A stretch of 64,000 nt of DNA from an uncultured Bacteroidota bacterium. Its GTDB lineage: Bacteria > Bacteroidota > Bacteroidia > Flavobacteriales > Flavobacteriaceae. Under the pieces are notes generated by a model that was not told the origin of the DNA, searched no databases, and worked only from the letters and a program-made list of their open reading frames with translations. Below are positions 50,619 to 53,924 of this stretch, piece by piece (within the stretch, counting starts at the first letter, position 1; each line of letters starts with the position of its first letter). The stretch spans positions 17,449-81,448 of the forward strand of contig CACGZJ010000005.1 of NCBI GenBank assembly GCA_902577515.1, in the 5' to 3' direction. The translations under genes and the position numbers were made by a program.

Positions 50619-50861
50619 CTATTCCTCTAGGTTATGTTTTTTATCAAGCCTATTCATTAAATAAACATATATGAAAATTAGAATAACAAAAATGTAAATT
50701 GATCCTTGTTGAGCAAACCAAAAGCCCAAGGGGAATCCACCTAGGTAAAATTCATTTAAGTTTTCAGCAAGTAAAATACCAAAACCAAAAGAACAAATAA
50801 ACCAAATTGTTAGAAGTATCCTAAGGTATAATATGTTTTTTCTCCAATATTTTTCTTTCAT
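50619..50861 (-). CDS. DUF4212-type small subunit of SSS symporter
   Basis: 80 aa, two TM, YWRKNILYLRILLTIWFICSFGFGILLAENLNEFYLGGFPLGFWFAQQGSIYIFVILIFIYVYLMNRLD. Confidence 0.88.
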   Translation of the reverse strand: MKEKYWRKNILYLRILLTIWFICSFGFGILLAENLNEFYLGGFPLGFWFAQQGSIYIFVILIFIYVYLMNRLDKKHNLEE

Positions 50862-50926
50862 TTTGTTTATTTTTTTTCAAATTAAACAATAATTAAATAA
50901 ATATCTCACTTTATAATTACAGCTTA

Positions 50927-51406
50927 TTATTTGTTTTCTGGAAGCTTTCCATGTTTTCTCAAATCCTCTTTTGTAATTATACTAAATGTGTTTGATTTTG
51001 GACCTCCTTTAAAAATTTCAAATGATTCATTTGGCATTGATATGAGTTTTCTAAGTTTTGTGTCCATAATTCCAAAAGCTAAATCTAGATGAGCTAAATG
51101 GTTTCCATTCATATCATAAAAATTTTGAAAAAGAGTGAAAAACCTACCATCTTCACTGTAACCATCTATCTCTACATTAATTGAAAATTCAACACCCATC
51201 ATTATCTCTTCGTAATAATGCATATGTTCATAGAATAGGACGGGACCTATATTGAGATTATTAAATTTATCTTTATCTAGTTTTAACTCAGAGAAGAAAG
51301 ATACTCGAGTATCTGTTGCATATTTTATGTATGCATGATTAGCAACATGCCAGTTAGGATCAAGATCAGTCCATGAGGCAAAATATTTTCTTTCAAATTT
51401 TTCCAA
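50927..51406 (-). CDS. Hotdog-fold (4HBT-like) acyl-CoA thioesterase family protein
   Basis: FASWTDLDPNWHVANHAYIKYATDTRVSFFSEL. Confidence 0.8.
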   Translation of the reverse strand: MEKFERKYFASWTDLDPNWHVANHAYIKYATDTRVSFFSELKLDKDKFNNLNIGPVLFYEHMHYYEEIMMGVEFSINVEIDGYSEDGRFFTLFQNFYDMNGNHLAHLDLAFGIMDTKLRKLISMPNESFEIFKGGPKSNTFSIITKEDLRKHGKLPENK

Positions 51407-51439
51407 ATCTAAAAAATTGGTTATTTCAATTTAGGAAAT

Positions 51440-51937
51440 TTAAAAAAAACTTTCTCTGTATCCCCAAAAAATATCAAAATAGAAAAACAAGAAACTAAGA
51501 CTTATTAAAAATTTTATTACACTTCCGGCTATAACTCCTATAAATGAGCCAAATGCTGGTCTCAATGATTCATTGAAAGATTTATTATTAGTCATTTCTC
51601 CAAGTAAAGCACCTAAGAATGGACCAATAATAATACCAATAGGTCCAAGAATAACTAAAGCCAGAATAAGTCCAACTGTTGTACCTATTTGTCCAGATCT
51701 TGTTCCCCCTAATTTTTTTACTCCTAATATTGGTATCAAATAATCAAGGATTCCAACTGAAACAGCTACAGTAAGTGTTATTAAAATGAAGTTCAAGTTA
51801 AACTCAACTACAGAAGTTAAGTTTAAAAGCAAAATACCCAACCAAGCAGTAACTGGGCCAGGTATTATTGGTAAAAAGCTTCCAATTATGCCAATTAAAC
51901 AGCATAGAAAGCCTAATATTAATAAGAATAAATCCAA
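51440..51937 (-). CDS. DUF456 domain membrane protein
   Basis: LLILGFLCCLIGIIGSFLPIIPGPVTAWLGILLL, KKLGGTRSGQIGTTVGLILALVILGPIGIIIGPFLGALLGEM. Confidence 0.9.
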   Translation of the reverse strand: MDLFLLILGFLCCLIGIIGSFLPIIPGPVTAWLGILLLNLTSVVEFNLNFILITLTVAVSVGILDYLIPILGVKKLGGTRSGQIGTTVGLILALVILGPIGIIIGPFLGALLGEMTNNKSFNESLRPAFGSFIGVIAGSVIKFLISLSFLFFYFDIFWGYRESFF

Positions 51938-51941
51938 GTTA

Positions 51942-52433
51942 TTATTCTGAAGGCTGAGTTTGTCTATCGTATACGATTATCATACTTACTAAACCATCCG
52001 TAAATTGAATATCCAACATTGTTCCTGTTGAAGTTTCAACACCATCAACAGTTGTTATTGTTTGATGTCCTGCAATTATCCATGTTTCACCATTATTAAC
52101 TCCAACATATGGCATTCCCCAAAAAGGATTAAATGATGGATTAGTTTCTTCAAACCATGATTTAAGACCTTCTAAATGAGAAGCCTTGTCATCAACAGTT
52201 CTTCCATCAGAATGATATATAATAAGATCATCTGATAAAAGTGCATCTATTGCCATCATATCTTGATTGTTATGAGCATCAATAAATTGGTTGTATAATT
52301 CAGTTGTTTCTGATGGTCCAGCAACAAATGTTTCATTCTCATCGCCTAACCAAAAACCGAAACCTTTAACTTCTTCCGTTGGCATATCACATGAAGCGAA
52401 TAAAATTGAAACTAATAAAATATATTTTTTCAT
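51942..52433 (-). CDS. NTF2-like lipoprotein, paralog A
   Basis: Lipobox ILFASC; TTELYNQFIDAHNNQDMMAIDALLSDDL...WGMPYVGVNNGETWIIAGHQT. Confidence 0.8.
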   Translation of the reverse strand: MKKYILLVSILFASCDMPTEEVKGFGFWLGDENETFVAGPSETTELYNQFIDAHNNQDMMAIDALLSDDLIIYHSDGRTVDDKASHLEGLKSWFEETNPSFNPFWGMPYVGVNNGETWIIAGHQTITTVDGVETSTGTMLDIQFTDGLVSMIIVYDRQTQPSE

Positions 52434-52456
52434 TTTAAAGTATTTATAGTTATATA

Positions 52457-52466
52457 CTAAATATAG
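52457..52466 (-). promoter_or_regulatory. Promoter-like CTATATTTAG shared by the two NTF2 paralogs (copy A)
   Basis: Same CTATATTTAG...ATAACTATAAA upstream of both paralogs. Confidence 0.4.
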
Positions 52467-52489
52467 CGAAACTTAATTATTGATAAAGC

Positions 52490-52663
52490 AATTAACAATG
52501 TTATTAAACATAATTCTTATTAAATCCTAATACTTAGATAAGATTTAAAATTAGAATACCTAGCCAAGAGTAACCAGGCTAGGTATTATATTATAGCTTG
52601 AAATAGAACTATCTAAGATTACTCACAATAAAAATTTATTGATAGGAGTAAAAAATTTACAAT
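52490..52663 (-). pseudogene. Decayed DUF456 gene copy
   Basis: Minus strand ATAATACCTAGCCTGGTTACTCTTGGCTAGGTATTCTAATTTTAAATCTTA aligns with the DUF456 gene ATAATACCTGGCCCAGTTACTGCTTGGTTGGGTATTTTGCTTTTAAACTTA; conceptual IPSLVT/WLGILILNL...VLGFNKNYV/LITLL versus IPGPVTAWLGILLLNL...VVEFNLNFILITLT, with frameshifts and stops. Confidence 0.8.
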
Positions 52664-53158
52664 TTAATCTTGTGAAGGAGGTTCTTTATCATATACTATT
52701 ATCCAATTAAGAAGACCGTCAACAAATTGTGCGTCAATCATTCTTTGAACAGCAACTTCCTCTCCCTCTGCAGATGTATTTGTAACATATTGACCCGCAA
52801 TAATCCACTCTTCGCCTTTAGATACAGCTTTATATGGAAGAGCCCAGTACATATTCCAATTAGGATCAGTTGTAAAGTAATTTGAAAGAGCTTCAGCATG
52901 TGCATCTTTGCCCTCTATTACATTTCCATTAGATAATGCAATTCTAATACTGTCTGTTTCAAGTGATAAAATAGCATCAATATCTTTATTATTATGAGCC
53001 TCGACCCAATTTGAATAAGTATCTGTTAGTTCATCTGATGCTATAACATATTTTTCAGTGCCATCACCACCTATCCAATATCCAGCGCCTTGAGGTTCAT
53101 TAACATTTTCGTTACATGATACAAGTAATATAGAAAATAATAAAATATATTTTTTCAT
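52664..53158 (-). CDS. NTF2-like lipoprotein, paralog B
   Basis: MKKYILLFSILLVSCNE...; LTDTYSNWVEAHNNKDIDAILSL...WALPYKAVSKGEEWIIAGQYVT; clear paralog of the 51942-52433 product. Confidence 0.8.
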   Translation of the reverse strand: MKKYILLFSILLVSCNENVNEPQGAGYWIGGDGTEKYVIASDELTDTYSNWVEAHNNKDIDAILSLETDSIRIALSNGNVIEGKDAHAEALSNYFTTDPNWNMYWALPYKAVSKGEEWIIAGQYVTNTSAEGEEVAVQRMIDAQFVDGLLNWIIVYDKEPPSQD

Positions 53159-53182
53159 TTTAAATTTGTTTATAGTTATTAG

Positions 53183-53192
53183 CTAAATATAG
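53183..53192 (-). promoter_or_regulatory. Promoter-like CTATATTTAG (copy B)
   Basis: See copy A at 52457-52466. Confidence 0.4.
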
Positions 53193-53369
53193 AAAAAGTT
53201 AAGCAAAGTTTCTAATTGCACTAATATTTCCAAATAGGGACCGTGTAATTATTTTTTTCAAAAAATGATTTTTTCTTATCATTTAGTTTACTATTAGATT
53301 AGTTAGGTTAGTAAGAAAGTTATTAATATTTGATGGTTTTTTTTACTTTTAATAAATAAAAAATTTTTT

Positions 53370-53924
53370 ATGGCTAAAACTACATCAAATATGATTTCAC
53401 TTGGGTCTAATGCCCCTGATTTTAAGCTTCCTGACGTTAATTCAGAAACTAATATTTCATTAAAAGAATATAAAGGAAAAGTAGGTACAGTTATAATGTT
53501 CATATGTAACCATTGTCCATATGTTAAACATGTTAACCCAACAATAACAAAAATATCTAAAAAGTATCATGGAGATGATATTAAGTTTGTAGCTATTTCA
53601 AGTAATGATGTTATAAATTATCCTGATGATAGTCCCGAAAAAATGAGAATTAATGCTATAGATAATGATTTTATTTTTCCATATCTATATGATGATTCTC
53701 AAGAAGTTGCAAAAGCATATGATGCTGCATGTACTCCTGATTTCTATGTTTATGATTCAAGTCTAAAGTTAGTATACAGAGGTCAATTAGACGATTCAAG
53801 ACCAGGAAATGATAAATTATCTGATGGAGCTGACATAGAAAATGCAATTGAATGCCTTATTTCTGGAAAGGAGAACACAAAACTTCAGAAACCTAGCATA
53901 GGGTGTAATATAAAGTGGAAATAA
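53370..53924 (+). CDS. Thioredoxin-family (AhpC/TSA-like) protein
   Basis: GSNAPDFKLPDVNSETNISLKEYKGKVGTVIMFICNHCPYVKHVNPTI, AACTPDFYVYDSSLKLVYRGQLDDSRPGN. Confidence 0.9.
   Translation: MAKTTSNMISLGSNAPDFKLPDVNSETNISLKEYKGKVGTVIMFICNHCPYVKHVNPTITKISKKYHGDDIKFVAISSNDVINYPDDSPEKMRINAIDNDFIFPYLYDDSQEVAKAYDAACTPDFYVYDSSLKLVYRGQLDDSRPGNDKLSDGADIENAIECLISGKENTKLQKPSIGCNIKWK

Follow-up and report, generated by a model that had tools for sequence, protein, structure and literature searches.

The window analysed here, a stretch of 64,000 nucleotides, belongs to an incomplete genome (1.16 Mb, 78%), termed G000, which we compared with 24 further genomes of the genus. Four elements follow one another on its minus strand in the direction of transcription: the lipoprotein gene NTF2-B (53158-52664), a gap of 230 bp (52434-52663), a second lipoprotein gene, NTF2-A (52433-51942), and an intact gene for a DUF456 membrane protein (51937-51440; 165 amino acids, TTG start, Pfam PF04306 with E=7e-33). 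Both NTF2 genes encode SnoaL/DUF4440-like proteins with a lipobox-like N-terminus (MKKYILL...SC), and, as proposed in an earlier, sequence-only reading of this DNA, they are tandem paralogs, the open reading frames being 44-45% identical. NTF2-A reaches 30.1 bits against DUF4440 (E=7e-7; Pfam cut-off 25.2), while NTF2-B remains below the cut-off at 19.9 bits, yet is 45% identical to NTF2-A. A search of the PDB with the lipoprotein sequences returned no convincing solved relative, and the structure model of NTF2-A, built on three sequences only, was too poor for a fold search (pLDDT 54.7). Each gene is preceded by a promoter-like element read from the sequence, CTATATTTAG, at 53183-53192 for NTF2-B and at 52457-52466 for NTF2-A, also on the minus strand. 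The element had been considered duplicated, which holds for the motif itself, but the regions that bear it have different closest relatives, that of NTF2-B being most like G018 and that of NTF2-A most like G013. Upstream of NTF2-B, positions 53199-53290 of the same strand match a PEP carboxylase-like gene (857 amino acids in relatives) at its 3' end, with a score of 127 against a shuffle maximum of 45, and are closest to G018. The complete gene occupies the same place in 9 congeners; a search of G000 for it found none, with the 3' remnant all that the window keeps.

The gap is not random sequence. Its alignment with the 5' end of DUF456 scored 58, whereas 2000 dinucleotide shuffles peaked at 40 and not one of 1074 other chunks of the window attained 58; two other scoring schemes agreed, so the DUF456 remnant suspected earlier is real. 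It spans 52479-52663 (minus strand), corresponds to the first ~60 codons only, as alignment with relatives also indicates, is frameshifted and decayed, and directly abuts the promoter of NTF2-A. The remnant is closer to DUF456 genes of relatives than to the intact one in the window, with scores of 84 for G021 and 58 for the latter. Looking for a second DUF456 gene, including the intact second copy that the sequence-only reading had suggested seeking in related genomes, we found none: all 23 genus genomes with a DUF456 match have exactly one. A junction of a DUF456 5' end with the NTF2-A promoter accounts for the stub and requires no complete second gene, and alternatively there may have been a complete second copy, the remainder of which was later deleted.

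Next, we considered the lipoproteins in the light of the congeners, most of which carry a single NTF2 gene immediately before DUF456, of a type that varies between genomes. Type A is present in the window genome and in G018, G019, G012, G016, G022, G017 and G004; type B in the window genome and G021 (92%), with a more distant form in G006 (69%). Another type occupies the slot in G020, G023, G011 and G007, a further one that in G008 and G009, and the occupant in G014 is very different (27%). In G008, G009, G014 and G020 the DUF456 proteins are 95-98% identical to that of the window, while the NTF2 proteins of the slot share only 27-51% identity with NTF2-A. At the protein level NTF2-A is 90% identical to the only NTF2 in the slot of G018, and NTF2-B 92% identical to its counterpart in G021. 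The same pairs are joined in the NTF2 tree, with support of 99/97 for window B and G021 and of 97/90 for window A and G018, A and B lying in separate supported groups. This conflicts with the tree of flanking proteins, which groups G000 with G008, G020, G014, G009 and G018 and places G021 elsewhere. Given the identities, the NTF2 tree and its conflict with the flanks, A and B did not arise by a recent duplication in place; as judged by these comparisons, they are alternative occupants of one slot that were brought together in the window genome. B may have replaced the resident gene behind the old promoter before A was added, or the events may have run in reverse. The slot thus exhibits fast lipoprotein replacement among otherwise closely related species. 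It is a speculation from this rapid exchange that the lipoproteins serve a surface role under diversifying pressure. The earlier suggestion of selection on the lipoprotein pair finds no indication here, most relatives having one NTF2 gene in the slot.

The intact DUF456 gene contains a terminator-like hairpin in codons 24-35 (51833-51866, minus strand; arms 51866-51856 and 51843-51833), an 11-bp stem which, together with the U-rich tail TTGCTTTT (51825-51832, same strand, codons 36-38, conserved as TTR-CTT-TTA), occupies codons 24-38. The stem starts about 75 nt past the NTF2 stop codon, inside the first ~105 nt of DUF456. Synonymous codons are conserved most strongly at codons 21-43 of the 22 genus DUF456 genes, with an excess of ~0.33 as compared to ~0.05-0.19 elsewhere. 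Measured against shuffles that preserve both protein and codon usage, the hairpin (-14 to -20 kcal/mol) has a z of -2.1 to -4.5 in all 21 NTF2-linked DUF456 genes, with -2.3 for the window's own. It is absent in G003 and G015, where DUF456 lacks an NTF2 neighbour (z -0.8 and +0.4), and essentially absent in 29 other genera of the family, in which DUF456 has the same protein motif and no NTF2 neighbour was detected (mean z -0.33, lowest -2.7). A sliding scan along DUF456 recovered a sole strong peak (-3.1 at codons 22-35, -3.0 at codons 25-38); a conserved second hairpin downstream was considered and rejected, the folding z at codons 37-50 being only about -0.9. The same hairpin is common to very different NTF2 types, with identities down to 27%. 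An IUPAC pattern of the stem matched a single site, at DUF456, in each of 21 genomes, and in addition the stub; the one extra match, inside an ABC-transporter reading frame of G012, was taken as chance, and the reversed control pattern had no matches in the genomes searched. An Rfam search gave no match. Covariation in the formal sense is weak, as most pairs are invariant; one pair is changed on both sides, and the covariation score is equalled by 33 of 500 shuffles. The variable inner stem positions keep pairing, and G-U-compatible variation occurs at several positions. Selection acting at the level of the hairpin in DUF456 is well supported by the genome comparison. A single origin is probable for the hairpin and the NTF2 linkage, on the branch that divides the 21 genomes from G003 and G015, so that their association counts as one evolutionary event.

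The stub retains this element as its best-preserved part, a perfect 11-bp inverted repeat of the form AATACCTAGCC-N11-GGCTAGGTATT (52555-52587, minus strand; arms 52587-52577 and 52565-52555) with a folding energy of -17.9 kcal/mol. It is followed by a partly eroded U-rich tail, CTAATTTT (52547-52554, minus strand). A terminator scan of 50800-53500 returned two sites only, that of the stub and its counterpart in the intact DUF456, with 0.6 expected. At those columns in which the 21 intact DUF456 genes are conserved to at least 90%, the stub matches at 19 of 20 positions in the stem, 6 of 7 in the loop and 8 of 10 in the tail, compared to 54 of 83 in the flanks (stem against flanks, p=0.006), and the single stem change converts a G-U into an A-U pair. 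This suggests that the hairpin was selectively kept in the stub, a comparison made in one genome, through an alignment with many indels and uncertain in the flanks. Three changes in the stub that appeared to be compensatory, perfecting the stem, were discarded, since the relatives show two of the three to be derived in the window's intact DUF456.

To what extent the element resembles an intrinsic terminator was assessed with a standard score of the d'Aubenton-Carafa type. The 21 NTF2-linked DUF456 genes averaged +3.1, 17 of them above zero, while none of the 29 other genera exceeded zero (maximum -17.8); elsewhere in the linked genes the score reached at most -36.8, and on the antisense strand -38 to -55. 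By this score the embedded site in the window's DUF456 is negative at -4.9, as is the stub at -17.4, weaker than the intact sites. The U-run is interrupted, reading TTTTRCTTTT in the intact genes with U at 6 of 8 positions after the stem, and the conserved post-stem codons favour U. Such an interrupted run would fit a leaky stop that still permits expression of DUF456. All six NTF2 genes checked that are followed by neither DUF456 nor another NTF2 gene end in canonical intrinsic terminators (scores 5-37); the first NTF2 copy of G011, where the next NTF2 gene lies 77 nt on, is followed by no DUF456 and no terminator. Terminators of this kind seem sparse here, as none of 63 window genes (reading frames of at least 100 amino acids) scores above zero within 100 nt after its stop. 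Published work in E. coli (PMC4824070) shows that an intrinsic terminator functions efficiently if it lies within the initial 100 bp of a coding region and if more than ~30 nt separate it from a stop codon; the embedded hairpin has such a position.

Aggregated, we consider it reasonably probable that a leaky terminator of the NTF2 gene is embedded in the coding start of DUF456, and that the stub represents this terminator travelling with the NTF2-B unit. The locus would consist of a slot promoter, an NTF2 lipoprotein gene exchanged between species, and DUF456, with the transcription stop of the slot written into DUF456 codons 24-38. RNA polymerase leaving NTF2 would be released at the hairpin in most cases, a minority of transcripts reading through into DUF456, itself presumably weakly started from its TTG codon. 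In the window, the B-type gene would have come to lie before the A-type unit with a DUF456 stub behind it, the coding sequence of which decayed as the hairpin was kept; the kept hairpin would leave NTF2-B with a stop signal, albeit weakened. Termination and read-through, as well as selection on the stub hairpin, are what we infer from these patterns.

Among other explanations, the hairpin may be an element of mRNA stability or processing, or, as a ribosome termination structure, a block to ribosome re-initiation, that sets the ratio of NTF2 to DUF456 expression without ending transcription. The data reveal selection on a hairpin rather than termination, and structures of this kind are frequent downstream of stop codons (PMC7518266). 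The published structures are, however, located directly after the stop codon and not ~75 nt further on, the U-rich tail is conserved on the sense side, and detached NTF2 genes possess canonical terminators; we hold this explanation to be unlikely. Still less likely is the origin put forward in the sequence-only reading, a cassette of promoter, NTF2 and DUF456 duplicated in place, one DUF456 of which then decayed neutrally, with the hairpin surviving by chance. The remnant is indeed real, the order of the parts fits and G011 also has tandem NTF2 genes, but A and B belong to distinct, older types that occur singly in the slot of other species, and they are closest to G018 and G021, respectively, against the flanking tree. 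Whole-cassette copying is similarly at odds with the single DUF456 of every congener and with a remnant of only ~60 codons from the 5' part, and chance survival with a stem better preserved than its flanks. That the inverted repeat acts on the DNA, as a site for protein binding or for recombination promoting NTF2 exchange, is very improbable despite its position at the border of a slot with an exchanged occupant and its occurrence essentially once per genome, since G-U-compatible stem variation is more in keeping with RNA than with a DNA dyad, the U-rich tail lacks symmetry and there are no second genomic sites except the stub and the one coding-region match in G012.

Returning to the embedded terminator, a more far-reaching and rather doubtful extension is that the first DUF456 codons double as a shared stop of the interchangeable slot, gated by DUF456 translation, such that any entering NTF2 gene would inherit the stop, and that beside an extra NTF2 copy the terminator half was retained as the coding half decayed. 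The proposed element resembles leaky intrinsic (Rho-independent) operon terminators and short-leader attenuators, for example that of pyrBI, in its stable stem and U-rich tail and in a site unblocked by ribosomes, within the initial ~100 nt of coding sequence (PMC4824070). It differs from these in that it resides within N-terminal codons of a conserved structural gene rather than in a leader peptide or spacer, and in its genus-wide upkeep by synonymous constraint. RNA 3' ends inside open reading frames have been mapped in E. coli, some with intrinsic-terminator scores (PMC7815308), and likewise represent transcripts ending inside coding sequence; those are experimental, whereas the evidence here is comparative only, and the gene served by the signal seems to be the upstream one. 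The DUF456 family includes YqgC of Bacillus subtilis, which is co-transcribed with sodA and together with SodA affects manganese homeostasis (PMC10888875); the partner of the same protein family is here an NTF2-like lipoprotein. The literature on embedded terminators and SnoaL lipoproteins provided context and no earlier description of this case, which is best read as known elements in an unusual arrangement, an exchange slot with a terminator in the coding start of the next gene. If true, it would be a clean case of one stretch of DNA serving as protein code and as the transcription stop of the preceding gene, with the stub as a natural experiment that separates the two roles. It would also show how a streamlined genome packs regulation into coding sequence, and explain why what looks like a fossil gene may be retained.

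Some further observations concern the surroundings of the slot. The PEP carboxylase-like gene was found in 12 of the 25 genomes, most of them incomplete, and its decayed 3' end is kept in the window and in G019; it adjoins the slot in some congeners only (relatives' loci L063, L065, L066, L068, L072, L074, L076, L077 and L082). G011 (L071) and G007 (L072) carry an extra NTF2 gene adjoining an AhpC-like gene; the two copies are 93% identical to each other and 26-47% identical to the other NTF2 types, and no DUF456 remnant was noticed behind them. Across loci L062-L084, the apparent start codon of DUF456 is TTG in nearly all NTF2-linked genomes, and ATG in G003 and G015, which lack an upstream NTF2 gene, and in G014, which has the most divergent one. 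Finally, the DUF456 gene of G001 (L081) has a frameshift near its start and two in-frame stop codons with the hairpin intact. This may reflect an error in the assembly, or may offer a second natural test.
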